The notes beneath the pieces were generated by a model. The model was not told where the DNA came from, did not search any database, and was given only the letters and a program-made list of their open reading frames with translations. From positions 18,145,922-18,209,921 of the forward strand of contig JAQNBH010000010.1 of assembly GCA_028752905.1 (NCBI GenBank): a stretch of DNA of 64,000 nucleotides, in the 5' to 3' direction. Positions 1,049 through 50,680 of the stretch are shown piece by piece. How positions within the stretch are numbered: the stretch's first letter is position 1; each line of letters starts with the position of its first letter. This DNA comes from Cladorhizidae sp. MBARI D1340-BT2 (taxonomy: Eukaryota > Porifera > Demospongiae > Poecilosclerida > Cladorhizidae). The position numbers were made by a program, and so were the translations under genes.

Positions 1049-1192
1049 TGTAGCTACCTCGTAGGGAGCTAACAAACAAAATCCAACAAGGAATAATTGA
1101 CAGAACCACTCGAGACAAAACTTGTTGTTATTATATATTGCGATCGAACATCTATCCTATATGACCCTTGACCTCCTATGTTGAACGCTACA
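1049..1192 (-). repeat. 3' LTR of element 1
   Basis: 144 bp, left copy; identical to 5263-5406 by eye. Termini TGTAGC/GCTACA. It is the 3' LTR because the element is coded on the minus strand. Confidence 0.95.
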
Positions 1193-1203
1193 TGGCCCCC
1201 CCT
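1193..1203 (-). other. Polypurine tract of element 1
   Basis: On the minus strand AGGGGGGGCCA directly abuts the 3' LTR, the expected position of the plus-strand primer. Confidence 0.75.
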
Positions 1204-1246
1204 AGCAATGTAAAATACAACAATAATCAGTTTGTGTATTATAACA

Positions 1247-4200
1247 TTACCAAGTTCGCAGGTTCAGTCTGTCCGGAGGGAGAATCTCACGTCCACTTCG
1301 TGTACGGAGAGATGGAGCCGTATCCGGAGGTGCTGGCCGAGTTTCCACTGTAGTTGTTGGTGGAGGAGCTGTGGCACTTTGTGGTTCCATAGGGGACGGG
1401 TAGGCAGTTTTGAGGCGATCAACTGTAACTCTCTCTACTTTGCCATCTCGATTAATGAGAAAGTGTTTCTCATTCCGTTCCAGAACTGGGTAGGGCCCAG
1501 CATAAGGGCGTTGGAGGGGGTTACGATGGGCACCATGGCGCATGTAGACGAAGCCCGTGTGCCCAAGGTCTATAGGGATGTGAGTTGGTCGGGTGCCATG
1601 GTATTGTGGAGGAGGAGGTAGGGCAGTGTGCATGGAAGTCTGAAGCTCGCGGAGGAAACCAGATTGCAGGTCGGACGCCCTTGGGGCGCTGAAAAATTCC
1701 CCAGGCAGGTGGAGAGCGGTGCCGTACACAAGGTCAGCTGGGGAGCACTCAGCATCCTCACGCCAGGCGGTTCGTATGCCCAGCAACACCATTGGCAATT
1801 CATCCATCCACTTGGGTCCTGTGAGGCGAGCCTTGAGGGAAGCTTTTAATTGCCTGTGCATTCGTTCGACTAGACCATTCGCCTGGGGGTGGTAAGCTGT
1901 GGTATTGTTGGCCGAAATTCCAAGCAGTCTGTTGAGTTCCGACCACAATTCCGAGGTGAACTGTGGGCCTCTGTCTGAGGTGAGGTCCCCAGGAACCCCA
2001 AAGCGAGCTATCCAGTTTCGCAGGAAGCCTTTGATGCACGTCTCCGCAGTGCATCCTGCCATGGGAATTGCTTCTGTCCACCGAGTGTAACGGTCGATAA
2101 CGGTAAAGAGGTATGTCATACACTCAGATTCGGGCAGTGGGCCAACAATGTCTACATGGAGAGATCCAAAGCGCCGTTCTGGCGGTGGACGAGGCTGCAG
2201 AGGGGCATGGACATGTCGTTGCACTTTGGAAGCCTGACAGGGGTGGCATGTTCGGCACCAGCTGCGGACATCGGTCTTCATCTTGTGCCAGACGAACCGA
2301 CGTGAGATAGCTCTGAGTGTGGGGCGGCTGCCAGCGTGTGAGAGTCCATGGATGGTGTCAAAGATGCGCCGTCTCCACTCGCGTGGCACAAGTGGCCGTG
2401 TATGACCAGTGGAGATATCACACAGCACAGTGAAGTCCTGGAAGGGTACGTCCTCTAGCCGGAGGCTGGTGATTGCTGTGCGATAGGCATGGATCTCATC
2501 CGAGGTGGTTTGGTCAGCGGCCAGTTGTCGGTAGTTAATGTCTGGTGAGAACATTGCAGCGATGGTAGGGGCTCTGGACAGGGCATCGGCTACCACGTTG
2601 TTTCGACCTGACACATGTTGCACGTCGTTTGTGAACTCTGCCACGAACGAGAGATGCCTTGTTTGGCGAGGGGAGCGGTCTACAGCATTTGACATTGCCC
2701 CAACAAGGGGCTTGTGATCTGTGAAGGCTGTGAATGATCGGCCTTCAACATAGTGGCGAAACTGCTTGATGCCCAGATACAGTGCGAGGAGTTCTCTGTC
2801 GAAAGTGGCGTACTTTTGTTCAGCTGTGGTAAGTTTCTTGCTGAAGAAAGCAAGCGGGTGCCAGGAACCCTCGCGGAACTGGTCCAGGGAACCACCAACA
2901 GCAAAATCTGAAGCGTCTACAGTAATGGCGAGTTTGCCGCCATTGATGGGGTGCTCAAGGAGGGCCGCAGAGGCAAGGGCGGACTTGGCCATGTCAAAGG
3001 CAATCTGACAGTTGTCTGACCAGGTAATTGCTTGACCCCTTCTTTTGCAGGCTTCATGCAGAGGATGAAGGTGGCCGGCAAGTCCAGGCAAGAATCGGTG
3101 GTAGAAGTTAACCATTCCGAGGAACATCTGGAGACTTTTCTTGGTATTCGGGGCTGGGAACTCGCGGACTGCTGAGACTCGTTCCGGTAGTGGTTTGATA
3201 CCGGTTGTGGTAACATGGTGGCCAAGGAAGTCTATCTGGGCGACACCGAAGACACACTTTTGTCTTTGGACAACCATCCCACTATCCGACAAGGCTTTGA
3301 AGACTTTGCGAAGGTCGTTTGCATGTTCCGTTCGGGTGCTGCTGCTCACGAGGATGTCGTCCAGGTAGATGAAGACGCAGGGGATGCCTCGGAGTATGGT
3401 GTCCATGAGTCGTTGGAATGTTTGAGCGGCGTTCTTGAGTCCGAATGGCATACGGAGAAATTCCCACAGGCCGAAGGGAGTAATGATGGCTGTTTTGCAA
3501 ATGTCTGACTCTGCCATCGGAATTTGGTGGTACCCTCGAGCCAAGTCAATTTTGGAGAAAATAGTCTTGTCGTGTAGATTTCCGTTAAAGTCGCCAATGT
3601 GAGGTATGGGATAGCGGTCATCTGTGGTGGCCGCGTTGAGGTGCCTGAAATCGCCACATGGTCGCCAGCCACCGCCTGGTTTGGGTGTGATATGTAGAGG
3701 AGATGACCAGGGAGAGTTCGATCTCCGGATAATGCCCAAGTCTTCCATCTTCTTGAACTCAGTCTTGGCTACGGCTAGTTTCTCATCATGGAGGCGGCGT
3801 ACCCGAGCGAAAACAGGGGGTCCCTTGGTGGTCAGATGGTGCTCTACGCCGTGCAAGTTTTCGTCAGAGGAACGAAAGCGTGGAACTAGTAGTTCGGGAA
3901 ACTCATTGAGAATGGAGGCCATGTCACTGTCATCTGTCCTGACTCGGTGGATGCCGCGCACGTCTGATGCCAACGAGGCTGTGGTTGGGATGACGGAATA
4001 AGAGTAGAGATCGATAAGGCGACGTCCTCGGAGGTCGACTGTGAGGTTGTTAGAGACGAGAAAGTCTGCGCCCAGAATAGGTTGGCGTACATCTGCAATG
4101 TGGAATGATTGCACGAAGGAGCGGGATCCCAGATTGACTGTAATACTTCTTTGGCCCCAGGTTGAGATTTTAGAGTCGTTTGCTGCGGCGAGCGGTTGGG

Positions 4201-4306
4201 TTGTTTCACGATGTTGTCGATCAGTGGGGGAAGCAGGAAACACCGACTCATCTGCACCTGTGTCGATGAGGAAGTGTCTGCCAGTTTTACGGTCCCAGAC
4301 AGACAT
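1247..4306 (-). CDS. Pol polyprotein of element 1 (PR-RT-RNase H-IN)
   Basis: 1019 codons without a break. Residue positions: protease DTG 15-17; reverse transcriptase about 150-335 with YLDD 314-317; RNase H with D464, E505, D530 and D574; integrase zinc domain H653, H657, C687, C690; catalytic D719, D778 and E814, the last spaced exactly DX35E. The ATG at 4306 may not be the real start. The frame is open upstream through the gag stop and is -1 relative to gag, so synthesis as a Gag-Pol fusion by -1 frameshifting is likely. I did not identify a slippery site. No chromodomain seen; the C-terminus is proline-rich. The protein copies and inserts the element. Confidence 0.95.
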
Positions 4307-4350
4307 TGTGTTGCTTCCGTCTTGATGATGATGGCCGACCGCTACGACGG

Positions 4351-5130
4351 CTAGCGGCCGGCGGTGGCATTTCCCGACCTCGGGATAAGGTGGGCCATGT
4401 CACATAGTGCCGCAGATGAGGTTTCACCACATTTGCGTGCTTTCTCCCCAAACTTGGCGTGGTAATAACAGCGTGTGCCTGTCCTACCTATAGGCGGATG
4501 TGTGCGTCTGTCCCTGTTACCTGGCGAGACCACCGCGATACCATAGGCCGGGGATTGGGCTGCAAGGACGTCATCAGCGGCTTTGGCGAGGTCAGTTATG
4601 TTGGTTGGGGGATCTCGGGCAAGTACGACCCGAACAGACTCTGGTAGCTGCCGCAGGAAGAGGGCGCGGTAGACTGTGGACTTCTGGTCGTCAGCTGTAG
4701 TCAGTGAGTTCATGTACCGGAGGAGGCCCGATGGTTTGCGGTCACCCAGACCTGAGATGGCAAGGAGAGAAGTATCTTTGTCAGCTTGAGTGAGGCCAAA
4801 GGTGCTGATGAGTAGCATCTTTAATGCGTCAAACTTGCCTCTGACAGGTGGATTTAGGAGGAAGGCCGAGATTTCTTCGGCTGTTGTCTTGTCCAGCCCT
4901 TGCACCACATGGTGGTATTTGGTATCATCAGCTATGATGTTCTTGGTGACAAACTGTGACTCTAGGAGGGAGAACCACACTTCAGGGCGGGTGGGCCAAA
5001 AGGTTGGTATCTTGACTGTTACTGCTTGGACTACTCCAGCGATATCACCCACGGCACCCACTGCAGGGGTTGCCGCTGTTTGGAGAGCAATAACCCGTTG
5101 AGCGATGGCAGTGATGTCGGCAGGGTCCAT
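4351..5130 (-). CDS. Gag protein of element 1 (CHCC type)
   Basis: 259 codons. Forms the virus-like particle and binds RNA. The N-terminal half has the [15 protein letters not shown] segment (39-53) typical of CsRn1-like Gag. Near the C-terminus Cys221, His224, Cys234 and Cys243 give CX2HX9CX8C, the unusual CHCC box of this clade instead of CCHC. The start codon at 5130 has A at -3 and G at +4, a good animal initiation context. It ends with TAG at 4351-4353, 45 bases before the first pol ATG and overlapping the open pol frame. Confidence 0.92.
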
Positions 5131-5244
5131 GCTGGGTAGATGTTTGTTTCAGTACGCCGGGGCGTTATTTGGAGTTAACTTTCACAACACTGTACTAACT
5201 GCAGTTGAGAAGAACTGGAGGCCAGTGTTGGGAGAGAGTGTGCT

Positions 5245-5261
5245 TCACGTCGGGGTCACCA
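5245..5261 (-). promoter_or_regulatory. Primer-binding site of element 1 (tRNA-Trp)
   Basis: The plus strand reads TCACGTCGGGGTCACCA, matching the conserved 3' end of animal cytosolic tRNA-Trp plus CCA. On the element's strand it is the complementary site, one base from the 5' LTR. tRNA-Trp priming is known for CsRn1-clade elements. Confidence 0.88.
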
Positions 5262-5262
5262 G

Positions 5263-5406
5263 TGTAGCTACCTCGTAGGGAGCTAACAAACAAAATCCAA
5301 CAAGGAATAATTGACAGAACCACTCGAGACAAAACTTGTTGTTATTATATATTGCGATCGAACATCTATCCTATATGACCCTTGACCTCCTATGTTGAAC
5401 GCTACA
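5263..5406 (-). repeat. 5' LTR of element 1
   Basis: 144 bp, right copy, identical to 1049-1192. Carries the element's promoter by position; no motif assigned. Confidence 0.95.
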
Positions 5407-6485: not shown

Positions 6486-6678
6486 TAGACAATAACGACC
6501 TAGACTAGTCCTCCTATACGTGTATTAACATTGCTGGTCGCACCTTACCCGGTTGACGTCCCCTTACCTCACGCATGCTCACGCACATACGTTCACTTGA
6601 TGTATTCATTCCATGCCTGCCATACTGATATTCAATCCTCTCTGATCAGGTACTGGAACGGCGTACCGCGCTTGACTA
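6486..6678 (+). repeat. 5' LTR of element 2
   Basis: 193 bp. The putative RNA start is at about 6594 (CACTTG), giving U3 of about 108 bp. U3 shares blocks with the LTR of element 3, for example TTAACATT, ACCTTACCCG and TCCCCTTACCT. No canonical TATA box at -30 was found. Confidence 0.92.
6594..6608 (+). promoter_or_regulatory. Putative self-primer (predicted 5' end of element 2 RNA)
   Basis: CACTTGATGTATTCA within the 5' LTR is a perfect 15-nt reverse complement of 6679-6693. The preceding T makes TCACTT, an initiator-like context. In Tf1 of fission yeast the first 11 nt of the transcript fold back and prime reverse transcription; this segment has the matching geometry. Confidence 0.75.
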
Positions 6679-6693
6679 TGAATACATCAAGTG
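6679..6693 (+). promoter_or_regulatory. Self-complementary primer-binding site of element 2
   Basis: TGAATACATCAAGTG begins at the first base after the 5' LTR, where a primer-binding site belongs. It does not start with TGG, so it cannot pair with a tRNA CCA end. It pairs perfectly with 6594-6608. Confidence 0.78.
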
Positions 6694-6749
6694 CTTTGAT
6701 AGTCTCTATTTAGACATCTAGCCTTGCCTGCAACAGTGCTGGCGAAGTG

Positions 6750-6805
6750 AGCCTTCGTTTCGGTAGGAGTTCTATTTAGCCTTCGTTTCGGTAGGAGGTC
6801 TATTT
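6750..6805 (+). repeat. 28-bp direct repeat in element 2 leader
   Basis: Two tandem copies of a 28-bp sequence starting AGCCTTCGTTTCGG, differing at one base (AGTTC versus AGGTC), just upstream of the gag start. Confidence 0.9.
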
Positions 6806-6815
6806 GGTGCCCACC

Positions 6816-7283
6816 ATGGCGGTGAGCTGCCCATACCCTGGATGTGATTATGCCACGCCCATGGAGGTAGATCCAGTGGTGGTAGCAGCCATACTGAACG
6901 GGCATATGTTGATACACAGCCAGGCAACACGAGCGAAGCCCACACCCGTCCGTCGGCCGGAAGTATCGGCCGGGGGGACCACCGAGGGATGGCAGTACTT
7001 CCTGACCAGGTGGAGGGCCTACTCGCAGGCTGTCCGCTTGGTGGGGCCCGACATCGGCATACAACTCCTCGAATGTCTAGACGCCAAACTCAGGAGAGAC
7101 GTGACCCGGAATGTCATCGGACCCTTACCCATAGAGGAGTACACGGAGGCGGACCTCCTAGCAGCCATCAAGGCCCTGGCTGTGAGGGAGGAGAACCCCA
7201 AGGTAGCCAGGGTCGCCCTCTCCAGGATGGTCCAGGATCGGTGGGAGCCTATCCGGTCTTTCGCCGCGAGGCTCCGCGGCTAG
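6816..7283 (+). pseudogene. Gag N-terminal part of element 2, ends at premature TAG
   Basis: Starts at ATG 6816 in a strong context (CCCACCATGG). The first 30 residues have a C2H2-like finger: CPYPGC, then HMLIH. A helical Gag region follows, ending in FAARLRG. TAG at 7281-7283 stops it after 155 codons. The frame resumes without shift, and in element 3 the same position is a sense codon, so this is a nonsense mutation in gag, not the gag-pol boundary. Confidence 0.9.
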
Positions 7284-7304
7284 GCAGAGGTCTGCCGGTT
7301 CACC

Positions 7305-10300
7305 ATGAAGTGTGCAGCGTGTGACCAGGTGAACAACCAGGGGGAGCAGCGGGTCGCTGACCAGCTCTGCATCGGCCTGGCCGATGCAGACATCCAAGTC
7401 GACCTGCTGAAGGACCCCAATCAATCAATGACAGTGGAGGAGACGGTGCGCTTCGTGGAGGTGAGGGCCGCAGGCAAACGGTCCGCGGTAACCATTACCA
7501 CACCCACCTCAACAGGCGCCCTAGGCGAGGGGACGGAGAATGAAGACGCTGCCGCACTCAGTGGATACCGCCACCAACAGCGCCAGCCCTCACCTTGCAC
7601 CAAGGCGACCCTTCCCAGGACCAACCGTCCCCATGCCACACAACCTCACCAACCCCAGAGGAATATGCCCAACCCAAGCAGAGGGCAAACTAACACCACC
7701 TGGCACCCCACAAACCCCAAGGCCACCTGCTGCTTTTGTGGCCGACAGGGCCATGGCGAGAGAGAAAGAACCGCCATCCGCAGAACACACTGCCCAGCAT
7801 TTGGCTCCACCTGCCCATCATGTGGCAGGTCGAATCACTTTGCACCCATGTGTTGGCAGAGGTCATCTGAACAAGAGAGCGCCGTGTCGGAGCAGGTCCA
7901 CACCATGACCGAAGGCACGCTCCCCCATCAATCCTGGGACTCAGACACCCAACGATGGACCCAACGCCGCTCACCGCCACAGCCAATCATTGAAGTATCG
8001 GTGTCCACCCACAGAGAGGACTACCGGGCACATGGCCACACACTCAAGAAGGAAAGACACCACCTCGCCACCACAGCCATGGCTGACACGGGCTGCCAGA
8101 GTTGCCTGGCAGGCCCACTCCTCCTGAGAGACCTGAACCTGCTCGAAACCGACCTCATACCTGCCACACTCGTGATGAGCTCGGCCAGCGGGAACAACCT
8201 GCCCATCCTTGGCACCGCACTCCTCCGGATCAAGCTCCACCACTCAAGACGCGAGACGAGGCAGATGGTATATTTTAGCCCCTTAGCCACGAAGCTGTAC
8301 CTGAGCATGTCCACGTGCACAGACCTTGGGCTGATCGATACGGGGTTCCCCCTCTGTATGCCGACGCCACCCACGGGAAACGGCACGGGTACACGGGCGA
8401 CCCCTGATCAGCCCTCGTCACATCTCAATGCGGTCCTGCAGACCAGAACACCCCTGCTGACCAGAACCCGTCAACCAGCGACCAGACCAGCCATCGGCCG
8501 TCCGACAATGTCCCCAGCGGACCTGCAGACCAGACCACCGGGACCCCACACTCAACCAGTGGTGAGCCAAAATGCACACAATCCCCCCAGACCCTGCTCA
8601 TGCCCAACCAGGGCACCCCCCCCAGATAGACCAACCTCCCTTCCCTTTCCTGGCACTGAGGAGAACCGCCACAGACTTGAGCGCCACTTGCTGGACCTAT
8701 ACTCAGCAAGTGCGTTCAACGTCTGTGAGCATCAACCCCTCCCCATGATGTCTGGACCCCCACTCTCCCTGAGCATTGACCCAACAGCCATCCCCAAACC
8801 CTGCCACAACCCCATAGACATTCCCATCCATTGGCAGGACGAGGTGAAGGCAGGGCTCGACCGGGACGTCCGCCTTGGCGTGCTGGAGAAGGTCCCCCTG
8901 GGTACGCCCGTCACTTGGTGCCACCGTATGGTAATATGCACCAAGAAGGACGGGTCACTCAGGAGGACAATCAACTTCCAGCCCCTGAACCAGCACGCCA
9001 CGCGCGAGACCCATCACTGCCCATCACCCTTCCACCAAGCCCGTGCCATTCCATGCCGAACCAAAAAGACCGTCTTCGACGCGTGGAATGGCTACCACTC
9101 CGTGGCCCTTGACAAAAGAGATCGCCACTATACAACTTTCATCACTCCATGGGGCAGGTACAGATACTGTACCGCCCCCCAAGGCTACATCGCCTCAGGG
9201 GATGCCTACACGGCCAGATACGATGCCCTCGTCGCCAACGTTACGTCTAAGACCAAGTGCATCGACGATGCACTACTCTGGTCGGACGACATCACAGGAG
9301 CATTCCACCAGGCGACTGAGTGGCTCCACATCTGCGCCGTGAACGGCATCACCTTAAACCCCCGAAAGTTCCACTTTGCGGAAGACACCGTGGAGTTTGC
9401 TGGATTCAACGTGACACCATCTGAGGTACGCCCAGCCAATAAGTTCATCGAATCGATCACGGATTTCCCAACCCCAACCGGCATTACTGACATACGTGCC
9501 TGGTTCGGCCTGGTGAATCAGGTATCCTACACATTCGCCATGACAGCCACCATGCTACCCTTCAGAGCCCTGCTCAAACCCTCCACCCCTTTCACCTGGA
9601 CGGACGAGCTGGCTGAAGCCTTCACTGCATCCAAACTCCACATCTGCGAGCGCATCAGGGTCGGCGTCCAAATCTTCGACAAGGACCGCCCAACCTGCCT
9701 GGCGACCGACTGGAGCAAGGACGGGATCGGGTTCTGGCTGTTCCAAAAACACTGCCAGTGCCCGCCCCGCGCCTTGTTCTGTTGCCAGGATGGTTGGCGC
9801 ATCACCCTGGTGGGCTCGCGCTTCACCCACCCAGCTGAGTCCCGCTACGCCCCTGTTGAGGGAGAGGCTCTAGCTGTGGCTGATGCACTGGACAAGGCCC
9901 GACACTTCGTCCTCGGGTGCAGCGATCTCGTGGTAGCAGTCGACCACAAACCCCTGCTGAAGCTCTTCGGTGATCGCTGCCTCGAGGACATCCCCAACCC
10001 CCGCCTACGCAACATCAAGGAGAAGACCCTCCGATACCGGTTCCGGATGGTGTACATCCCTGGCGTGAGAAACCACACCAGCGATGCCCTCTCACGCCAC
10101 CCATCCGGGACCCGGACCCCACCCCGCCTCCACCTCACAGACGACCTCGCTGACCCAAACGCGTCATGCCCAGGCAGCCCCACATCGGCAATCGCAATCA
10201 TTCAGACGGACAGTGACGACAGTCGGGACGACAACGGCCTCTCAACTGCACTGTGCATGGCCATCTCAACCATACCAATCAACTGGGAACAAATACAGAT

Positions 10301-11168
10301 CGCCACAGCAGCAGACCCATCCCTACAGGACCTCAGCCACTACATAGAGGAAGGGCCCCCGACAGACAGACACATGCTACCAGCCGCCATCCGGACCTAC
10401 TTCCCCATATTCTACAGGCTGTCTGTCATCGATGGGGTTATCTGCCATGGAGACTGTGTCGTCATCCCTGCATCACTCAGACCAACCTGCCTTGCCGCCC
10501 TACATGCCGCCCATCAAGGCACCAGTGGGATGACGGCCCGAGCAACCTCCTCGTTATACTGGCCAGGCCTCACCGCCGACATAGCCGCTACCAGGAACAG
10601 CTGCACCATATGTAACGGCAATGCCCCCTCACAGCCAGCGATGCCCTCAGTCACACCAGAGGAGCCGGAGTACCCCTTCCAGCACATCTGCGCGGATTTC
10701 TTCCACCACGAGGGATCCGCATATGTCGTGCTGGTCGACAGGTACTCCGGCTGGCCGATCGTCGCACCCGCCCTCAACGGAGCCTCAGGCCTCGCCACAA
10801 CCCTCAGGGACACCTTTGCCACCTTTGGCATCCCGGACTCCCTTACAACGGACGGCGGACCCGAGTTCGCAGCACAATCCACCAGAGAGCTCCTCAAGAC
10901 ATGGGGCGTCCACCACAGGATATCAGCGGCATACAACCCGCATGCAAACAACAGGGCGGTGACGGCAGTTAAGACAGTAAAGAGACTCATCGCTGGCAAC
11001 ACCGGTCCCGGTGGCTCTCTACAATCACCATTCTTCAAGGCCCTTCTCCTATACAGGAACTGCCCCAGCCCGGATACGAAGATGTCCCCAGCCATGGCCC
11101 TTTTCGGCCGCCCCATCAGGGACCTCCTCCCCTTCATACCAGCACGCCTCAAGCAGCCCCAGGACTAG
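7305..11168 (+). CDS. Gag C-terminus and Pol of element 2 (open segment of the broken frame)
   Basis: 1287 codons in the same frame as 6816-7283, so this ATG is internal, not a native start. Two zinc knuckles lie at about 142-183, the second a CX2CX4HX4C. Protease DTG 261-263. Reverse transcriptase about 505-760 with CIDD 652-655 in place of the usual YXDD. RNase H D802, E854, D880 and D927. Integrase zinc ligands H1067, H1070, C1100, C1103; core D1131 and D1183. The expected Glu 36 residues on is Val1219 (codon 10959-10961), so strand transfer should be dead. It ends at TAG 11166-11168, where element 3 reads through. Confidence 0.92.
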   Translation: MKCAACDQVNNQGEQRVADQLCIGLADADIQVDLLKDPNQSMTVEETVRFVEVRAAGKRSAVTITTPTSTGALGEGTENEDAAALSGYRHQQRQPSPCTKATLPRTNRPHATQPHQPQRNMPNPSRGQTNTTWHPTNPKATCCFCGRQGHGERERTAIRRTHCPAFGSTCPSCGRSNHFAPMCWQRSSEQESAVSEQVHTMTEGTLPHQSWDSDTQRWTQRRSPPQPIIEVSVSTHREDYRAHGHTLKKERHHLATTAMADTGCQSCLAGPLLLRDLNLLETDLIPATLVMSSASGNNLPILGTALLRIKLHHSRRETRQMVYFSPLATKLYLSMSTCTDLGLIDTGFPLCMPTPPTGNGTGTRATPDQPSSHLNAVLQTRTPLLTRTRQPATRPAIGRPTMSPADLQTRPPGPHTQPVVSQNAHNPPRPCSCPTRAPPPDRPTSLPFPGTEENRHRLERHLLDLYSASAFNVCEHQPLPMMSGPPLSLSIDPTAIPKPCHNPIDIPIHWQDEVKAGLDRDVRLGVLEKVPLGTPVTWCHRMVICTKKDGSLRRTINFQPLNQHATRETHHCPSPFHQARAIPCRTKKTVFDAWNGYHSVALDKRDRHYTTFITPWGRYRYCTAPQGYIASGDAYTARYDALVANVTSKTKCIDDALLWSDDITGAFHQATEWLHICAVNGITLNPRKFHFAEDTVEFAGFNVTPSEVRPANKFIESITDFPTPTGITDIRAWFGLVNQVSYTFAMTATMLPFRALLKPSTPFTWTDELAEAFTASKLHICERIRVGVQIFDKDRPTCLATDWSKDGIGFWLFQKHCQCPPRALFCCQDGWRITLVGSRFTHPAESRYAPVEGEALAVADALDKARHFVLGCSDLVVAVDHKPLLKLFGDRCLEDIPNPRLRNIKEKTLRYRFRMVYIPGVRNHTSDALSRHPSGTRTPPRLHLTDDLADPNASCPGSPTSAIAIIQTDSDDSRDDNGLSTALCMAISTIPINWEQIQIATAADPSLQDLSHYIEEGPPTDRHMLPAAIRTYFPIFYRLSVIDGVICHGDCVVIPASLRPTCLAALHAAHQGTSGMTARATSSLYWPGLTADIAATRNSCTICNGNAPSQPAMPSVTPEEPEYPFQHICADFFHHEGSAYVVLVDRYSGWPIVAPALNGASGLATTLRDTFATFGIPDSLTTDGGPEFAAQSTRELLKTWGVHHRISAAYNPHANNRAVTAVKTVKRLIAGNTGPGGSLQSPFFKALLLYRNCPSPDTKMSPAMALFGRPIRDLLPFIPARLKQPQD

Positions 11169-11879
11169 ACACAGCACCTCATCCACCGCGAACAGGCACT
11201 CTCCCGCCGGCAGTCACTGGGCCGAGCACGATAGGATGAGCACTCCCGCGGCCTCTCCCCCCTTCGTTGTGGTGACAACGTCCTTATCCAGAACCAAACA
11301 GGACGCCATCCCACGAAGTGGGACAAAACAGGAGTGGTCGTGGAGGTGCTCCAATATCATCAATATCAGGTCCGCATGGACGACTCGGGAAGACTCACCA
11401 TGCGGAACAGGCGGTTCCTTCGCCGCCACACTATCCCCACCACAACCCCGGACCACCCACTCCAGCGACGCCTGCTGAACATCCAAACCCCTCTGCAGCC
11501 TTCAGAAAAACCCATCCCCCACACACCCCCAAACATCACTATCTTACCTCCTACCCCCCCACCTCTCATCCCACCTCAGATCCAACACCCGCCACCACTG
11601 GACGCACAGGCCCCAACGCTATCGCCTGCCGTGACTCGCAACCCTGGCCTAACACCGACTACCCCCAGGCCAGTCATCCTCACCACCCCGGCAAACCAGC
11701 GTACGTATGCCTCGGTCGCCGGCACACCAACGCCACCCCGTAGCCCCACCCGGACCGCCCAAAAAAGCTCGTCCATGATGCCTACCCTCGTCCTACCCCA
11801 GACCCCAAACCCTGCCCCCGGCCCCAGAAGGAGCAAAAGGGGCCCGAAACCTGTTCTACGATACGGACAGTCAACATAA
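11169..11879 (+). pseudogene. Integrase C-terminal tail of element 2, after TAG codons
   Basis: Same frame continuing after TAG 11166-11168, interrupted again by TAG at 11232-11234, then open from 11235 to the natural stop at 11877-11879. It contains the segment around TGRHPTKWDK and EVLQYHQYQVR, aligning with element 3, then a long proline-rich tail ending RRSKRGPKPVLRYG. Three TAG codons in all break the polyprotein; each could arise by one C-to-T or G-to-A transition. Confidence 0.88.
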
Positions 11880-11902
11880 CTATTCAGCCCTCCCGAAGTC
11901 GG

Positions 11903-11915
11903 ACTTGGGGGGAGA
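11903..11915 (+). other. Polypurine tract of element 2
   Basis: TTGGGGGGAGA directly before the 3' LTR at 11916. Element 3 has nearly the same sequence at its 3' LTR. Confidence 0.8.
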
Positions 11916-12110
11916 TAGACAATAACGACCTAGACTAGTCCTCCTATACGTGTATTAACATTGCTGTGTACGCACCTTACCCGGTTGACGTCCCCTTACC
12001 TCACGCATGCTCACGCACATACGTTCACTTGATGTATTCATTCCATGCCTGCCATACTGATATTCAATCCTCTCTGATCAGGTACTGGAACGGCGTACCG
12101 CGCTTGACTA
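11916..12110 (+). repeat. 3' LTR of element 2
   Basis: 195 bp, begins TAGACAATAA and ends CTTGACTA; matches the 5' LTR except for a 4-to-6-base patch near 11966. Confidence 0.93.
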
Positions 12111-38987: not shown

Positions 38988-39215
38988 GAGCTAATAAAAG
39001 GAAAGTAATCAAAACTAATCAATCCTTAAAAAGGCCGTTATACCCTTAAACTAATAAACTCAGACTGAGCTAATAAAAGGAAAGTAATCAAAACTAATCA
39101 ATCCTTAAAAAGGCCGTTATACCCTTAAACTAATAAACTCATAAACTCAGACTGAGCTAATAAAAGGAAAGTAATCAAAACTAATCAATCCTTAAAAAGG
39201 CCATTATACCCTTAA
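38988..39215 (+). repeat. 79-bp minisatellite, third site, left part
   Basis: Units start at 38988, 39067 and 39154; the second is 87 bp because of an 8-base duplication (ATAAACTC). The array is cut by the TTAA transposon and resumes at 42384. Confidence 0.92.
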
Positions 39216-39643: not shown

Positions 39644-39884
39644 ATGCCACGTCTGTGCAAAGCTAAAGCGAAGGCTCTCCTAGCCCGGCAGACCAAAGCT
39701 GGATGGCCTGGAGATAATTCTCCCCCTGCCCAGTTGGCAGCTACGGAATCTTCAACTCGGACTGCTGCTATGGAATCTTCCACTCGGTCTGCTTCTATCG
39801 AATCTTCCACTCGGTCTGCTGCTACTGAATCTTCCACTCAAGGTCTTGGAGTTGCTCCTGCAGGACCTAGTCAAGAAGCAACAG
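39644..39884 (+). CDS. Transposase exon 1 (predicted)
   Basis: Begins at ATG 39644 with the basic stretch MPRLCKAKAKALLARQTK, probably DNA-binding or nuclear-targeting. Then a Ser/Thr-rich region made of 9-residue repeats ESSTRSAxx (coding 27-bp repeat 39746-39840). I end the exon at 39884, where ACAG|GCAAGT is a GC-type splice donor; reading on unspliced meets a stop at 39899-39901. Splicing to 39973 keeps the frame into exon 2. Confidence 0.7.
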
Positions 39885-39972
39885 GCAAGTTTTATGAATA
39901 AGAAATGTGGATGTAAAAACGTGGATGCTTAGTGGACTGCTTGTGATTGTTATTCTTTCTTGTTTGTAACAG
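39885..39972 (+). other. Predicted GC-AG intron of the transposase gene (88 bp)
   Basis: Donor GCAAGT at 39885, acceptor TTTGTAACAG ending at 39972 after a T-rich tract. Joining gives a continuous frame; the nearby GT at 39889 does not. Confidence 0.6.
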
Positions 39973-40496
39973 TAGAGAGGCCTATTCCCATCATGACAGT
40001 GTCAGGGAAGAAGTTAGCTGCTGCAACCTCTGCTTTGACTCCAGCTAAGTCCACAGTTGAGGAAGGAGAGGGAAGGCGTATTTTTGATTTTTCTGCTTTG
40101 TCCGGTGCTATCGCAGGGGCATGTCTTTGTAAAGTTTGTCAACGGCCCGTCCGACTTGTGGAAAGCTTTGCTAGGAGAAGTGGTATGGTATCCTGTGTGA
40201 CAATTGAGTGTACCAACCCTAGATGTACTGAGGTGACCGTGGTGAGTGATCCCCTGTCGAAGGAGGCCAAGGCCCTAAATAAGGCAGTGATCTTTGGTTC
40301 CCGGGTTACAGGTTGTGGTAGGAGCGGCTTGGAAGATATTACAGCTTGCATGGAGATTTTACCCCCCGTTCGGGAAGCAGCCTTTGCTCGGTATCAGGAG
40401 GAAATAGCGGAGAGTTGCAGTGCAGTCAGTGAGGCTGTTAGGCTAGAGGCGGCTGAGCGTCTGCATGATTTTCATGATGCTAGGAAGGATGAGTGA
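39973..40496 (+). pseudogene. Transposase exon 2, N-terminal zinc-ribbon-like part, ends at frameshift
   Basis: Contains paired cysteines (CLCKVC and CVTIECTNPRC) suggesting a zinc ribbon, then an N-A-A/SGLEDI-type helical region ending FHDARKDE. TGA at 40494-40496 follows a frame change near 40490. The catalytic domain continues in the -1 frame, a net loss of one base. Confidence 0.8.
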
Positions 40497-41014
40497 TTGA
40501 TGTGGCTGTTACGGTTGACGGGACTTGGTCAAAGCGAGGCTACCATTCCCTGAATGGGGTGGTCGCAGTTATATCCTGGGATACTGGTGAAGTACTGGAC
40601 TTTCATGTGATGTCCAAGTATTGTGCAGCATGTGCGTCCTATAAAGCTAAGCATAGTGATGAGTGGTTCAACGGTCATGAAAGAGTGTGTACAAGTAATT
40701 ATGAAGGGAGCTCGGGACAAATGGAGACAGTAGGTGTGGTGAAGTTGTTTGAGAGGTCGGTTAGCAAGTTAGCCCTTCGGTATACCACCATGATAAGTGA
40801 TGGCGATATTAAATCTCATATGGCTCTGATAAATGCCCAACCGGTTATGGTCCTGACACGCTTGTGGAAAAAGAAGAGTGTGTTGGCCATGTTGGGAAAC
40901 GTTTCAAGAAGCACTTGGATGCCCTTCGGAAGAGTGGTGGTGTGGATGAGGAAGGTAATCATGTGTCCTTGCAAGGGAAAAATGGTGTTAGCAATGCCAC
41001 TGCAGTCGCATTAG
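40493..41014 (+). pseudogene. Transposase catalytic domain, first two Asp
   Basis: Frame starting at 40493 reads VAVTVDGTWSKRGY with the first catalytic Asp at 40517-40519, and MISDGD with the second at 40799-40801. Spacing and motifs fit Mutator_dom (PF20700-type) transposases. Sensible homology ends near 40841-40847, where a second net one-base loss moves the coding frame; the rest to 41014 is out of frame. Confidence 0.82.
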
Positions 41015-41451
41015 GTGGATACGTTGCTGGAGCCATTAGAAATAATCAGAATAATTTAGACGGCATGGTCCGGGATATCAAGGCAGTATATTTTCATTGT
41101 GTGTCCACCGATGACCATCCCCAGCATCAGTTTTGTCCCATGGGTGAGAGTAGCTGGTGCAAATATAATAAAGCCATTTCTTTGAAAGAAGCAACACCGA
41201 AGCATAAGCCCAAAATCCCCCCAGCGAAAGGAAAGTTTTTCAAGAAGGTCTTTGATAAAATGTCCCGGAGAGAACTTTTGAAAGGATGTTTGCGTGGTGC
41301 CACTCAAAATCAGAATGAGTGTTTCCATAGTGTGATTTGGAAGAGTGTGAGGAAGTCTGGCTTTGTAACGGCAGTGGTGGTCCATTTGGGTGTAAACATA
41401 GCTGTAGGAACCTTCAATAGCGGCAAGAGTGTGGCATGTCCAGGATGTTGA
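40864..41451 (+). pseudogene. Transposase catalytic domain, Glu-containing part
   Basis: Contains ECVGHVGKR, the family-typical STDDHPQHQFCPMG and SWCKYN segments, and TQNQNECFHS whose Glu (41317-41319) is the third catalytic residue. Loses frame again near 41430; the C-terminal tail is in the next frame. Confidence 0.82.
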
Positions 41452-44169: not shown

Positions 44170-44427
44170 AAATGATTTAAAATTGTTAGAAATGGAAAAG
44201 AAAAAGGAAGAGTTGGAGCTTCACAGTCTTTTAAGATCTGTGACAAAGCCAAACTTATGATGTTATGTATATCACAAGTTCAAGTATTGAATGTACTCTC
44301 TGCTTCGACTAATACCAAGCTGATGTGTCATCTGATGGAGTTCTATATAGTGAAAATTGGAAATGGAAAAGAAAAAGGAAGAGTTGGAGCTTCACAGAGT
44401 CTTTTAAGATCTGTGACAAAGCCAAAC
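44170..44427 (+). repeat. Partial internal duplication of the spacer before element 3
   Basis: After GTGAAAATTGG (ending near 44360) the sequence jumps back to AAATGGAAAAG, repeating the segment from about 44189 until element 3 cuts it at 44427. The identical junction is seen near 54352. Confidence 0.85.
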
Positions 44428-44615
44428 TAGAGGATAGTGCGTTACACATTTGATCATTGGATCAGCAAGGATATAAAGTAGCTTTCAATGAATAGCAATG
44501 CATGGACAAGTGACAGATGTGTGTGTGCGCATGCGTTAGGTAAGGGGACGACAAACGGGTAAGGGGTCGTACATAATAATGTTAATACGCATAGATGTTT
44601 GTATATACTTCACTA
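44428..44615 (-). repeat. 3' LTR of element 3
   Basis: 188 bp, left copy. Differs from the right copy around GCGCATGCG, GACGACAAA and GGGGTCGTAC. Confidence 0.92.
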
Positions 44616-44626
44616 CCTCCCCCCAA
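44616..44626 (-). other. Polypurine tract of element 3
   Basis: Minus strand reads TTGGGGGGAGG immediately before the 3' LTR, matching the tract of element 2. Confidence 0.8.
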
Positions 44627-44734
44627 GTAGGCTGGAGGGCTACTGATTTAGGATTGTTAGTACCCGTACCGGTCCACCGGTTTCGGTCCTCGTAGGCTGC
44701 GGCGGGGTAGTGGTGGGGTTGGTGGTAGTTTGGA

Positions 44735-45850
44735 CTAGGCCACGGGAGGGGTATTCTTTGATGTGGGCAGGAGTGGGCTCCTTAATGGCAGCTTGATCTG
44801 TGGGAGGCGCGATGCTCGGGATGGTGTCTTGGCCACGGACGCATATGTTTTCGGCGTTGTCGGTAGTGGGCTGGGTGTCGCTGACTGGGGAGGGATCTTG
44901 ATCTGTGCAGGAGCCGTGTTGATGTCCGGGAGTCGTGGTGATGGAGCTGGGTTGTTGGGGGGTGCCGGTGTGGGTGGTCTGTTGGGCGGGGGGTTTGGTG
45001 TGGTCGTCGGTGGAGCTGGGGCGATCGTGGCTGGGCCGACGGCAGGTGGCGTATATGCAGGTTGGGGCGTGATGGTGTGGGTGTTTTGGGATGTCAGGAA
45101 TGGGTCGTACTTCCGAAGGAAACGACGATTCCGGGTGGTCAGCCGCCCAGAGCCATCCGTTCGCACCGAGTACTGGTGGTACTGTAGTACCTCTACCACC
45201 GTGCCAGATTTATCCCACTTAGTCGGGTGGCGGCCAGTCTGATTTTGTATCATGACCGCGTCGCTGCAACGAAGTGGAGACAGGCCTTGGGAATGCTCGT
45301 CCCATCTGGCACGGCCAGTGACTCTGCGCTTGGAGAGGGCGCGCTCCCGGAGATCCAGGCGGTCTGACCAGTCCTGATGTGGGCGGTACTTACTGGGGAT
45401 GCCAGGTATGAGGTCTTTGGTGGATCTTCCGAACAGGCAATTCGCAGGGGACATGCCTGTTTCGGGGTTGGGGCCATTGCGATACTGCAGTAACGCGCGG
45501 TGGAACTTGTCGGAGAGTTCTCCATCGATGCCAGTGTAGCCAGATATCAAGCGCTTCATGGTTTTCACCGCGATCTCCGCGCGGCAGTTGCTGTGCGGGT
45601 TGTATGCGGCGGAGATGCAGTGGTGTATGCTCCAGGACAGGAGGAAGTCTCGGGTGGAGTGGGCAGCAAACTCGGGGCCGCCGTCAGAAGTGAGGCTGTC
45701 GGGGATGCCGTATGTGGAGAAGGTTTCGCGTAAGGTGCAGATGAGTCCATCGGCCCCATTCTTTTGGATGTGGTGACAATTGGCCAGTTGGAGTACCGGT
45801 CGACCAGTACAAGATACGCCAATCCTCCGTGGTGGACTAAGTCGGCGCAT
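44735..45850 (-). pseudogene. Integrase C-terminal half of element 3 (shifted frame)
   Basis: Homology to integrase begins at about 45765, after HIQKNGADG; upstream codons in this frame are out of register. It contains SDGGPEF with the second catalytic Asp, then NCRAEIAVKT with the catalytic Glu retained, unlike element 2. A C-terminal domain with TGRHPTKWDK and a proline-rich tail follow. It joins the main frame across a net one-base loss at about 45758-45768. Confidence 0.88.
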
Positions 45851-48800
45851 ATGTGCTGGAAGGGGTACTCTGGGTCAGCTGGCGTCGTGGATGGCATAGC
45901 TGGCTGTGACGGCGCGTTGCCGTTACAGATGGCGCACTGGGTTCTGGTGAGTCCGATATCCTTGGTCATGCCGGGCCAGAAGATGGATGCTTGGGCCCGG
46001 GCGGTCATCCCACTGGTGCCTTGATGTGCGGCGTGGAGTGCTTGGAGGCAGGTGGGGCGAAGGGCAGTGGGGATCACTATCCTTTCGCCTCGGCATATGA
46101 CGCCGTCCACGGTGGAGAGGGAGTCGAGGTAGGGGTGGTATTCTCGGATGGCTGCTGGCATGTGGTGTCTGGCCTCTGGTGGTCCCCCCTCGATCAAGTC
46201 TGAGAGTTGCTGGAGGCTGGCGTCGGCCGCTGTGGCGACCTGGATGTCCTCCCAGGTGATCGGGGCGTTGCGGATGGCCGCAGTTAGTGCTGTGGCCAGT
46301 CCTTCGGGGTCATTGGCAATGCAGGCGATCCTGTTTGTTGGAATGCACGTGTTGATGGTTGTGTGAGTGTCGTCCTGCAGGTGGAGTCGGGCGGGTGAAC
46401 GATCGCCGGATGGGTGGCGGGATAGGGCGTCGCTGGTGTGATTGCGGACTCCGGGGATGTATACCATCCGGAATCTGAATTGGAATGTCTTCTCCTTCAG
46501 ATTCCGGAGGCGGGTGTTGTGGATGTCCTCGAGCGAGCGATCTCCAAATACTTTGAGCAGTGGCTTGTGGTCCACTGCGATCTGGAGGTCGCTGCACCCG
46601 AGGACAAAGTGGCGGGCTTTCTCTAGGGCATCCACGATGGCGAGGGCCTCCCCCTCGATGGGGGCGTAGCGTGACTCGGCAGAGTGGGTAAAACGGGACC
46701 CGACAAGGACGACCTTCCATCCCTCCTGGCAACAGAGAATTTCCCGGGAAGGGCACTGGCAATGTTTTTGGAACAGCCAGAACCCTATCCCGTCCTTGCT
46801 CCAGTCTGTCGCCAGGCAGGTGGGTCGGTCCTTGTCGTATATCCGTACGCCTTCTTTGATGCGTCGGCAGATGTCCAGCTTCGACGCGTCGAAGGCTTGC
46901 TGTAGGCTGTCCGTCCAGGTGAATGGTTGTGATGGGCTGAGGAGGTCTCTGAAGGGTTGCATCACCGGGGCCATGGAGAAGGCATACGCGACCTGGTTCA
47001 CGAGTCCGAACCAAGCGCGTACGTCTGTTATGCCGAGTGGTTGTGGGAAGTCTCTGATGGCGGCGAGGTACTTCTTGCTGGGTCGGACATCTGTCAGGGT
47101 GATATCGAACCCGGCAAACTCCACTTCATCCTGTGCGAAGCGGAATTTGCGCGGGTTCAAGGTGATGCCGTTCCGTGAGCAGAGGTCGAGCCATTGGGTG
47201 GCCTGATGGTATGCTGTTTCCAGGTCTGGGGACCATAGCAGGGCGTCATCGATGCACTTTGTTTTGCAAGTGACATGCGAGACAATGGCATCATACCGTG
47301 CCGTGTATGCATCCCCAGATGCGATGTACCCCTGTGGGGCGGAACGGTAGCGATACCTGCCCCAAGGGGTGATAAAGGTGGTGTTGTGGCGGTCCGACTC
47401 TGTCAGGGTGACAGAGTGGTAGCCGTTCCAGGCATCGAAGATTGTCTTTTTGGTGTTACTTGGAACGGCCCGCGCCTGGTGGAAGGGTGACTGGCAGTGA
47501 TGGGTCTCCCTGGTGGCGTGCTGGTTCAGTTGCTGGAAGTTGATGGTCCTCCTCAGGGACCCGTTCTTCTTGGTGCAGATGACCATTCTATGGCACCAAG
47601 TGTCTGGGGTACCCAAGGGGACCTGTTCCAGCACGCCGAGGCGAACGTCCCTGTCCAGGCCTGCCTTTACCTCATCTTGCCAGTTGATGGGGATGCTGAT
47701 GGGCGTGTGGCAAGGTTTGGGAATGGCAGCAGGGTCGATACTGAGGGACAGGGGTGGTCCGGCCATCATTGGCAGGAGCTGGTGCTCGCACACATTGAAC
47801 GCACTTGCTGCGTATGTCTGCAGCAAGTGGCGTTCAAGCAGCCCCCGATTGGCCTCTGTGGCCGGGTATGGTAAGCTGGTAGGTCTGGGTGGTGGAGCGG
47901 CTCTCTTGGGGCACGAGCAGGGGCGGGCAGGTGTGGGTGCCGGGTTTTGCTGGGGTATGCTTATGGGGATGCTCACTGGGGCATTCACTGGTTGAGGTCG
48001 GGGGATGCTCACTGGTGTGTGTGATACTCTGGTGTGTGTGACACTCGCTGGTACACTCACTGGTTGAGATGGTGGTGGGTTTCCGTGGGTCATCCGTACT
48101 GGGTCCCTGGTCTGGCCGCGTTCCGTGGGGGGTGGTGGTGGGCTTGGTTGGGGTCCGGGGCGGGGTGTGTATGCCTGGTTTTGTGTGTCTACGACTGATT
48201 CCGACCTTGTCTGGTGTGCCTTTGGTTTGGTAGGCGAGCTGAGGGGGAATTCCAGGGGGATCATGTCGAGGTCTGCACATGTGGCCAGACTTAGATAGAG
48301 CTTCGTGGCTGACGGACTGAAATACACCATCTGGCGGGTCTCTGCACCTGATGGAATGCGGATTCGGATCAGGGCGGCTCCTTGAATGGGGAGGTTGGTT
48401 CCTGAGGCTGATTTCATCAGGAGGTTGACCGGGATGAGGTCATCAGGCGTGAGGTGGAGTTGTTCCATTAGAGTGGGGCCGGCCAGGCAACTCTGGCACC
48501 CAGTGTCTGCCATGGCTATGGTCTGGACGTTGAGGGTCTCCTGGGAGAGGGTGTGGCCGTGTGCTCGGAAGTCCTCATATCTGGCAGATATGGTGACTGG
48601 GATGTTAGGTTGGGGTGGGGAGCGTCTCTGCGTCCACGTCTCGGAGGTTCTGTTCCAGGTTTGGTGCTGTAGGGTGCCTTCGTGCATCCCCAGGACTTGC
48701 TCGGAGACGCTAGATTCGTTTTCCGCTTGCTGCCAGCACATGTGTGGGAGGTGGTGTTGTCTGCCGCATGCCGAGCATGTTGTGCCAAAGGCGGGACAAT

Positions 48801-49644
48801 GGATGCATCGGTGGGCCGTCCTCTCTTGCTCTCCGTGTCCCTGCTGCCCACAGTAGGCACATACACCTCGGTTGGTTGGGGGTCTGCTCTGTGGGGTGTT
48901 GCCTCTGGGTCGGATGTTTCTCGGTGCCAGGGTTGTGTTGGTTGACCTCTGTTGAGTTGGGGTGTGGCGGTGTCGAGGGGGGGTGCCTCTAGGCGGTTGA
49001 GGGTTTTGGCGTTGCAGCTTCTTGTATGAGCTGGCAACGGCTGATGTGTCCTCGTCTTCGTAGTGGGAGATGGCGCTGGAGGAGGTCGGGGTTGAGATGG
49101 ACAGGGCCGAACGCTTTCCTGCAGCCCGCACCTCGATGAATTTGATGGTGTCCTCCACTGAGAGGTCCTGGTCCGGATGCTTAAGGAGATCCTCTTGGAT
49201 CTCCGCATCCGCCAGGCCTATGCAGAGCTGGTCGGCCACTCGCTCCTCCACCTGGTTTGTCATGCCGTCGCAGTTTGGGCACTTCTTAAGGAACCGGCAG
49301 ACTTCGGCCTGTCCTCTGAGGCGTGCTGCGAAGGCGCGGATGGGCTCTGTACGGTCCTGGGTCATTTGGGAGAGGGCTACCCTGGCCACCTTCGGGTTCT
49401 CTGATCTGACAGCTAGGGACTTGATGGCAGCGAGGAGTGCTTCCTCCGTCGACCCTTCGATGGGTAGAGGACCGATCGAGTTTCTCGTGACGTCACGCCT
49501 GAGTTTCGTGTCGCAACACTCCAGCAATTGCACTGGTATGTCCGCGCCAGACAGTTGGACGGCCTGAACATACGACCTCCAGCATTGGAGGAAGTATATC
49601 CAGGCCTCTGTCGTCCCACCAGAGGAGACTTCCGGTCTTTTCAC
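45565..49644 (-). CDS. Gag-Pol of element 3 (main open segment)
   Basis: 1359 codons; the last roughly 65 (below about 45765) are out-of-frame read-through after the frameshift. Gag helical region 1-185; zinc knuckles 262-303; protease DTG 380-382; long proline-rich linker about 470-590; reverse transcriptase with CIDD 797-800; RNase H motif ATDWSKDG and VDHKPLLK; integrase zinc domain HAAHQGT...CAICN and first Asp in HICADL. The ATG at 49644 is internal: the native start is probably 49773, cut off by TGA at 49744-49746. Confidence 0.92.
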   Translation of the reverse strand: MKRPEVSSGGTTEAWIYFLQCWRSYVQAVQLSGADIPVQLLECCDTKLRRDVTRNSIGPLPIEGSTEEALLAAIKSLAVRSENPKVARVALSQMTQDRTEPIRAFAARLRGQAEVCRFLKKCPNCDGMTNQVEERVADQLCIGLADAEIQEDLLKHPDQDLSVEDTIKFIEVRAAGKRSALSISTPTSSSAISHYEDEDTSAVASSYKKLQRQNPQPPRGTPPRHRHTPTQQRSTNTTLAPRNIRPRGNTPQSRPPTNRGVCAYCGQQGHGEQERTAHRCIHCPAFGTTCSACGRQHHLPHMCWQQAENESSVSEQVLGMHEGTLQHQTWNRTSETWTQRRSPPQPNIPVTISARYEDFRAHGHTLSQETLNVQTIAMADTGCQSCLAGPTLMEQLHLTPDDLIPVNLLMKSASGTNLPIQGAALIRIRIPSGAETRQMVYFSPSATKLYLSLATCADLDMIPLEFPLSSPTKPKAHQTRSESVVDTQNQAYTPRPGPQPSPPPPPTERGQTRDPVRMTHGNPPPSQPVSVPASVTHTRVSHTPVSIPRPQPVNAPVSIPISIPQQNPAPTPARPCSCPKRAAPPPRPTSLPYPATEANRGLLERHLLQTYAASAFNVCEHQLLPMMAGPPLSLSIDPAAIPKPCHTPISIPINWQDEVKAGLDRDVRLGVLEQVPLGTPDTWCHRMVICTKKNGSLRRTINFQQLNQHATRETHHCQSPFHQARAVPSNTKKTIFDAWNGYHSVTLTESDRHNTTFITPWGRYRYRSAPQGYIASGDAYTARYDAIVSHVTCKTKCIDDALLWSPDLETAYHQATQWLDLCSRNGITLNPRKFRFAQDEVEFAGFDITLTDVRPSKKYLAAIRDFPQPLGITDVRAWFGLVNQVAYAFSMAPVMQPFRDLLSPSQPFTWTDSLQQAFDASKLDICRRIKEGVRIYDKDRPTCLATDWSKDGIGFWLFQKHCQCPSREILCCQEGWKVVLVGSRFTHSAESRYAPIEGEALAIVDALEKARHFVLGCSDLQIAVDHKPLLKVFGDRSLEDIHNTRLRNLKEKTFQFRFRMVYIPGVRNHTSDALSRHPSGDRSPARLHLQDDTHTTINTCIPTNRIACIANDPEGLATALTAAIRNAPITWEDIQVATAADASLQQLSDLIEGGPPEARHHMPAAIREYHPYLDSLSTVDGVICRGERIVIPTALRPTCLQALHAAHQGTSGMTARAQASIFWPGMTKDIGLTRTQCAICNGNAPSQPAMPSTTPADPEYPFQHICADLVHHGGLAYLVLVDRYSNWPIVTTSKRMGPMDSSAPYAKPSPHTASPTASLLTAAPSLLPTPPETSSCPGAYTTASPPHTTRTATAARRSR

Positions 49645-49743
49645 CGGGGCGGGTTTGGCTCTGGTGTTTCGGTGGATCAGGGCGTGGGTTGACAGGAGTA
49701 CCGGGGCAATGCCAGGGTCAGTGCCTTCGGCGATGGTATATTC

Positions 49744-49773
49744 TCATCCTGGGAATGGACAGTGGATGGCCAT
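49744..49773 (-). pseudogene. Native Gag start of element 3, stopped after 9 codons
   Basis: ATG at 49771-49773 begins MAIHCPFPG, aligning with MAVSCPYPG of element 2. TGA at 49744-49746 sits where element 2 has the second Cys of the N-terminal C2H2-like finger. The frame then runs open into 49644 without shift. Confidence 0.85.
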
Positions 49774-49873
49774 GAGGTGGGTGGGCGTCAAATGGAGTAT
49801 CACCCAGGAGTCTCCGATCGGTATGCAGACTCTTTGTAGGTGATCGCAGGAAGACTACCAGATGCTATTCGGG

Positions 49874-49887
49874 CACTTGTCCATGCA
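49874..49887 (-). promoter_or_regulatory. Self-complementary primer-binding site of element 3
   Basis: On the element's strand TGCATGGACAAGTG follows the 5' LTR with no gap and perfectly complements 49959-49972 within that LTR. No TGG start, so not a tRNA site. Confidence 0.78.
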
Positions 49888-50078
49888 TAGAGGATAGTGC
49901 GTTACACATTTGATCATTGGATCAGCAAGGATATAAAGTAGCTTTCAATGAATAGCAATGCATGGACAAGTGACAGATGTGTGTGTGCGCGCATGTGTTA
50001 GGTAAGGGGACATAAAACGGGTAAGGTGTCGTCCATAATAAATGTTAATACGCATAGATGTTTGTATATACTTCACTA
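49888..50078 (-). repeat. 5' LTR of element 3
   Basis: 191 bp, right copy. Minus-strand U3 shares blocks ACCTTACCCG and TCCCCTTACCT with element 2 up to the CACTTG predicted RNA start; the sequence after that differs. Confidence 0.92.
49959..49972 (-). promoter_or_regulatory. Putative self-primer (predicted 5' end of element 3 RNA)
   Basis: Minus strand CACTTGTCCATGCA, at the position homologous to CACTTGATGTATTCA of element 2, preceded by T. Complementary to 49874-49887 over 14 nt; pairing ends at the same C as in element 2. Confidence 0.75.
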
Positions 50079-50680
50079 CAAACTTATGATGTTATGTATA
50101 TCACAAGTTCAAGTATTGAATGTACTCTCTGCTTCGACTAATACCAAGCTGATGTGTCATCTGATGGAGTACTATATAGTGAAAATTGGGTACAGCATCA
50201 TCACGTTTGCAGGGGATGCCTGAAGATTGTGTCTCTAAAAACAACGAGGGCTGGTTTTGATCAGTGATAGTATCCTTAGTGTGAATGGAACCTATATGGT
50301 TGATATTTCGTGGACTTTTTGCTCATTTTTGTTTCCAATGCAAATAGAAATATGTCTGGTCTAGAAGGGGTAAGGATCGTCACGTTTTGACCGTCACTGC
50401 GAAGTGAACTTCCAGGTACAAGTTAGTAGTCCTAACGAAAGCTGATCTACGGTCCAGGAGAAATTGGCTGACTCTCAATTGATACTAGGACCTTGCGAAT
50501 GATATAAGAACTTGGGGAAAAGAAGATGAAAAAAATAGAGTGCACAAAACATTAGTAACCGCTGTTGAATTGGAACAAGCCGGAAATCTGTCTCTTCTAG
50601 AAGAGTTTTAACGCAGCGGTGAGAAAACATAGCTTGAAGAGAAAATGCATTTTATAAGTGATGAAATGTGGTGTCTGGAT

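Follow-up and report, generated by a model that had tools for sequence, protein, structure and literature searches.

Primer-binding sites complementary to their own LTR, and probable self-priming, in Ty3/gypsy elements of a tandem 5S rDNA array

In the Tf1/sushi group of retrotransposons (Tf1, Tf2, Tj1, and sushi), the primer-binding site (PBS) is described as the complement of a 5′ LTR segment that lies at the mRNA start (PMC4600332; PMC7175516; PMC10085805). For Tf1, the first 11 nt are given as the primer, with an RNase H cut between nucleotides 11 and 12 (PMC7175516), and the end of the 5′ LTR in fission-yeast elements is stated to be 'always CA' (PMC10085805). Self-priming has also been predicted from complementarity in Tcn1 chromoviruses and in the plant TAR elements of the Ty1/copia type (PMC6317226), and further fungal self-primed elements are named in a paper on bivalve TRIMs (PMC6934838). 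Skipper is presented as an element without the complementarity (PMC5006619), and five gypsy families are described as novel in a survey of the annelid Lamellibrachia (PMC8220671).

The locus described here is a window of 64,000 nt (positions 1-64000, the whole stretch of DNA that was analysed). It consists of a tandem 5S rDNA array with insertions, in which 31 Rfam 5S matches were found at a unit spacing of mostly 1.35-1.6 kb. Three LTR elements lie inside the array, each at a different spacer position, and their empty sites, that is, the joined flanks, were found elsewhere in the window 27 (element 1), 28 (element 2), and 27 (element 3) times. The window also contains a non-array stretch with two ORFs (39960-41451) that each match a different part of the Pfam Mutator-like transposase model, and short direct repeats lie near them at 38988-39215 and 39737-39839.

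Elements of the array and their clade

The polyproteins related to elements 2 and 3 carry the Pfam domains RVT_1, RNase H, H2C2, and rve in this order, which, with the LTRs and a short target-site duplication (TSD), corresponds to Ty3/gypsy (Metaviridae). The best PDB match of element 2 is Ty3. The reverse transcriptase (RT) of the clade is about 24% identical to that of Ty3 and 22-24% to that of element 1, and element 1 and Ty3 share 35%. In an RT tree drawn without Tf1 and sushi, the clade stands on a long branch apart from both Ty3 and element 1; this tree kept 16 of 31 intended rows, with L001 and most genome loci left out for a stop in the RT-RNase H segment or a motif mismatch. A search with E values up to 10, in which the HMMER filters drop most weak hits, gave no Chromo domain match in four family polyproteins and the C-terminal ORF of element 3. 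In the families of E2, E3, L011, L013, L017, L020, and L024, which have 5-bp TSDs, the LTR ends are TAG...CTA or TAG...TTA rather than TG...CA.

Table 1. Coordinates of the features within the window
Feature	Position	Strand	Remarks
Element 1	1049-5406	minus	TSD CTAT
Element 1 PBS TGGTGACCCCGACGTG	5245-5260	minus	2 nt from TGT...ACA-type LTR; internal control
Element 2 (E2)	6486-12110	plus	TSD AAAGT
Element 2 5′ LTR	6486-6678	plus	193 bp, TAG...CTA, TSD AAAGT
Element 2 putative self-primer segment CACTTGATGTATTCA	6594-6608	plus	
Element 2 putative PBS TGAATACATCAAGTG	6679-6693	plus	flush with LTR
Element 2 ORF	7305-11168	plus	RT, RNase H, integrase
Element 2 3′ LTR	11916-12110	plus	195 bp
Element 3 (E3)	44428-50078	minus	TSD GTTTG
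Element 3 5′ LTR	49888-50078	minus	191 bp, TAG...CTA
Element 3 putative self-primer segment CACTTGTCCATGCA	49959-49972	minus	in 5′ LTR; +1 and cleavage presumed
Element 3 presumed +1			A of TCACTT (or preceding C); cleavage expected after CA
Element 3 putative PBS TGCATGGACAAGTG	49874-49887	minus	flush with LTR end, exact complement
Element 3 PBS positions 14-17	49871-49874	minus	hotspot among 40 copies
Element 3 ORF	45565-49644	minus	RT, RNase H, integrase H2C2
Element 3 ORF	44735-45850	minus	part of integrase core; match slightly under Pfam cut-off
Element 3 polypurine tract ACTTGGGGGGAGG	44616-44628	minus	precedes 3′ LTR
Element 3 3′ LTR	44428-44615	minus	188 bp
Self-primer segment copy in element 3 3′ LTR	44499-44512	minus	third exact copy
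Element 3 TSD GTTTG	50079-50083; other copy 44423-44427	minus	5 bp

The N-terminal part of element 2 is split between an ORF at 6804-7283 and the ORF that starts at 7305, whereas its closest relative, P0001, is a single ORF of 1686 aa; this copy may thus be broken at its N-terminal part (6804-7305).

Of 8000 candidates scored in a protein search, 2242 matched. The informative names among the 120 matches listed were Diadema antillarum, Candidatus Thiodiazotropha endolucinida, and the endosymbiont of Escarpia laminata. The two bacterial symbiont assemblies presumably contain host DNA, and elements 2 and 3 belong to a divergent Ty3/gypsy clade that is apparently one of marine animals. Scans of viral contigs returned zero relatives, and a scan of genome contigs returned one, L001, on a contig filed under the symbiont of the tubeworm E. 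laminata, which we infer to be host DNA. Positions 1-5200 of L001 form an LTR element of the E2/E3 clade, whose coding match continues past the contig at either end, as would be seen for a collapsed repeat.

Pairing of the PBS with the LTR

The LTR ends of element 3 are fixed by its 5-bp TSD and by its joined-flank empty site, which recurs 27 times elsewhere in the array, and the gap between the end of the 5′ LTR and the putative PBS (49887-49874, minus strand) is zero. Read on the plus strand, 49874-49887 is CACTTGTCCATGCA, and 49959-49972 is the complement. All 14 positions pair, above the maximum of 11 reached when the LTR was dinucleotide-shuffled 5000 times and offsets of 0-12 were permitted, which bears out the claim of the preliminary description that element 3 has, flush with its 5′ LTR, a site matching that LTR. 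Pairing is 15/15 in element 2 (shuffle maximum 12) and 15 in L001 (maximum 11), each against 5000 shuffles. In elements 2 and 3, whose primer lengths differ by one, it can be extended by one base, into the final A of the LTR. The same description held that these two elements share only a CACTTG/CAAGTG core and differ at the remaining 8-9 positions; this was overstated, since CA and some neighbouring bases are also common when the segments are anchored at the cleavage end. In element 1, the PBS of which we take to be of the tRNA type from its TGG start, pairing between the PBS region and its own LTR never exceeds 6 nt.

Copies and relatives were sought in 857 Mb of genome sequence in 325 contigs. 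A search with P0091 in which 29 of 19230 candidates were scored gave 13 relatives that pair at 13/13 and 15 that pair at 12/13; no PBS site was found in the other one, L016. Thirteen of the fifteen with a mismatch form a young family in which this one mismatch is the same, and the other two are L014 and L015. In the latter loci the PBS runs on for four bases more than usual, and its pairing reaches LTR sequence upstream of the initiator-like A, perhaps as the product of a longer transcript.

Nine primer/PBS pairs were then compared: E2, E3, L001, L011, L012, L013, L017, L020, and L024, eight of them from this genome and L001 from the symbiont-labelled contig. With their own partners, 116 of 117 positions are paired, while 11 of the 13 positions vary and PBS positions 1 and 2 are invariant. 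Swapped partners pair at a mean of 5.4/13, the highest value (12) occurring between two close relatives. The observed total was reached by 1 of 100000 permutations, and 0.28 would be expected from identity order alone. Between L012 and L017, which have equal loop lengths and LTR ends, a C/G in the primer and a G/C in the PBS are swapped on both sides; these two are closely related, so the nine pairs are not fully independent. The covariation suggested from elements 2 and 3, with both sides changed together and pairing kept, thus extends to the part of the family covered here, in which all but one of the 29 scored relatives pair at 12 or 13 of 13 positions and cross-pairing among the nine pairs is poor.

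The pairing also has conserved boundaries. At its near end, CA^TT is found in all nine pairs and in 26 of the 29 scored loci, with TA^TT in L014 and L015. At its far end, eight of the nine pairs have TC|A in the LTR (L011 has CC|A), which is close to the initiator consensus TCAKTY (PMC3601003). Because the segment begins at or beside the A of a TCA motif and ends at CA^TT, the primer is likely to be the 5′ end of the mRNA, probably its first 13-17 nt, as in Tf1. The start base is uncertain in E2 and E3, as pairing there takes in the C preceding the A. In 9/9 pairs the A is preceded in the LTR by C, which would predict G in the PBS; past the complement of the A, the PBS continues with G in E2 and E3, A in L012, and C in the other six (L001, L011, L013, L017, L020, and L024), so that the idea of a cap-templated C fits 6/9 pairs. 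None of the nine pairs has a TGG-type site after the LTR, unlike the neighbouring element 1. Folding of three 5′ leaders predicts the duplex in each (z -3.85 to -4.55), and the minimum free energy folds of these leaders contain the central duplex only, with no flanking 'pretzel' duplexes seen.

Possible copying of the PBS from the primer

Self-priming in these elements is very likely from these features, and we hold it highly probable that elements 2 and 3 prime reverse transcription with their own RNA and have their PBS recopied from the primer. The start site, cap, cleavage, priming, and copying that we infer would be arranged as follows. Transcription from the LTR promoter would begin at or beside the A of the initiator-like TCA motif, and the first 13-17 nt of the RNA would fold back onto the sequence directly 3′ of the 5′ LTR. 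The RNA would be cut after CA, before TT, and its new 3′ end would start minus-strand DNA exactly at the final LTR base. Later, the plus strand would copy the still-attached primer back to the primer 5′ end, by which the PBS would be remade as the primer complement, and a change in the LTR segment would reach the PBS in one cycle. If the plus strand copies the primer in this manner, joint change of the two sides needs one mutation plus copying, not two compensatory events. The preliminary description had taken compensatory change as evidence that the pairing is used: the pairing is indeed supported, but two independent mutations are unnecessary.

Two patterns fit a rewriting of the PBS from the primer and support it, though they do not prove it. 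The first is found among copies of element 3, of which 40 of 179 candidates were scored and all 40 read. Pairing over PBS positions 1-13 is complete (13/13) in 36 of them. Mismatches lie on the PBS side in L040 and L065 and on the primer side in L060 and L067; in the latter two the segment in the 3′ LTR is intact, from which it follows that the changes postdate insertion. Mean diversity is 0.003-0.008 over primer, U5, PBS 1-13, and leader, and 0.065 in the upstream part of the LTR. PBS positions 14, 15, and 17, however, have 4, 4, and 2 alleles (position 16 is invariant), and these four columns hold 7 derived alleles, and the remaining 114 columns together 15 (binomial p 6e-6, a guide only, as the four columns were picked after looking). 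The copies were selected by similarity within the same stretch, which lowers diversity there and does not create a hotspot. Columns 14-17 follow directly on the complement of what is presumed to be the first base. A plus strand made on the primer would exhaust its template at this point, and the hotspot fits this expectation.

The second pattern comes from the young family (40 scored of 43 candidates; 22 places contain the PBS, and all 22 were read). At PBS position 7, 15 of the 22 copies have a C that makes an A-C mismatch with the primer and seven have the matching T. The T occurs with 653C in L030, L031, L091, L092, and L093, with 653T and 428C in L028, and with 428T in L094, and the mismatched C is found on the same three haplotypes, while sites 428 and 653 are mutually compatible. 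Repeated correction from the primer would explain this simply and is supported by it, although template switching near the 5′ end could also produce the haplotype conflict. As 15/22 copies keep the mismatch, perfect pairing is not required and any rewriting is incomplete; this recently active family speaks against strict covariation. Sequence following the primer complement is invariant in all 22 copies, with no hotspot seen.

For the L020 family, 44 candidates gave 40 scored copies, and 23 of these cover the PBS part of the query: 20/23 pair at 13/13, a single mismatch is present in L084 and an indel in L086, and L090 lacks the site. Two copies deviate at each of positions 14 and 15, only a mild excess, and a hotspot as strong as that of the element 3 family was not seen among these 23 copies. 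One member, L018, lies between kilobase direct repeats (43-1263 and 6585-7794; 93% alike) that are distinct from its LTRs, and is perhaps inserted in a satellite.

The pairing, its flush position, the covariation, the conserved boundaries, the hotspot, and the pattern of matched and mismatched copies are visible directly in the sequence, and other readings of them were weighed. The inverted repeat might form a hairpin that acts in RNA packaging, in translation, or in termination, with a tRNA or another RNA priming elsewhere. A long stem does appear in folding, but such a hairpin need not be flush with the LTR end in 9/9 pairs or begin beside an initiator-like A, and the nine pairs are without the TGG-type site that element 1 possesses next to them; we regard this reading as unlikely. 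Chance or simple-sequence pairing, for which the partly palindromic primers of L012 and L017 might speak, is extremely improbable given shuffle maxima of 11-12 against the 14-15 observed and the permutation result above.

It is also very improbable that gene conversion or aberrant repair copied the LTR segment in inverted form to the position after the LTR, with no role in priming for the copy. One-step copying would account for the joint change of both sides, and positions 14-17 resemble a copying edge; yet such events would need to have happened anew in each family, with almost identical positions for both boundaries, whereas priming accounts for both the copying and the boundaries. A copied inverted fragment, named earlier as an alternative that would overturn the use of the pairing, is in itself no true rival, since self-priming predicts copying of the primer. 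A wider form of the self-priming reading is tentative and has somewhat less than an even chance of holding as a whole: that self-priming operates outside chromoviruses in a widespread animal Ty3/gypsy clade, that the PBS is a living primer copy remade up to the mRNA 5′ end, that the bases beyond it are untemplated or cap-dependent additions, and that the integrated genome would thereby record the start site while primer and PBS co-evolve by copying.

Comparison with known systems

As in the Tf1/sushi group, the PBS of the E2/E3 clade lies downstream of the 5′ LTR and is complementary to a segment of it, and the presumed cut would fall inside the LTR RNA, for which CA^TT in 9/9 pairs is suggestive. 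Unlike the Tf1/sushi chromoviruses, the clade has no detected Chromo domain and its LTRs end in TA, not CA, and its presumed primer measures 13-17 nt instead of the 11 nt of Tf1; the predicted folds of the three leaders did not show the flanking duplexes. Its RT is also distant from that of Ty3 (about 24% identity), a relative of the chromoviruses. Tcn1 and TAR share predicted self-priming with the E2/E3 clade but belong to other clades. Element 1, a metazoan Ty3/gypsy element with a tRNA-type PBS, has the same superfamily, domain order, and animal host as elements 2 and 3 and differs in its TGG-type PBS, its TG...CA LTR ends, and its greater proximity to Ty3 (35% RT identity).

Among the titles and abstract openings listed from the open-access literature, none was found that reports self-priming in a non-chromovirus clade of animal Ty3/gypsy elements. 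If the reading is true, the tRNA-independent priming of fungal, plant, and vertebrate elements is shared by a divergent clade of animal elements, and either a great age or a second origin of the route is suggested; joint changes of primer and PBS should then not be counted as two compensatory events. Tools that demand TG...CA ends or a tRNA-type PBS may miss such elements, and the hotspot and the matched and mismatched copies offer a means to seek primer copying from genome data alone. Self-priming itself is already known from the Tf1/sushi group; what is new here is the host clade and these two footprints.
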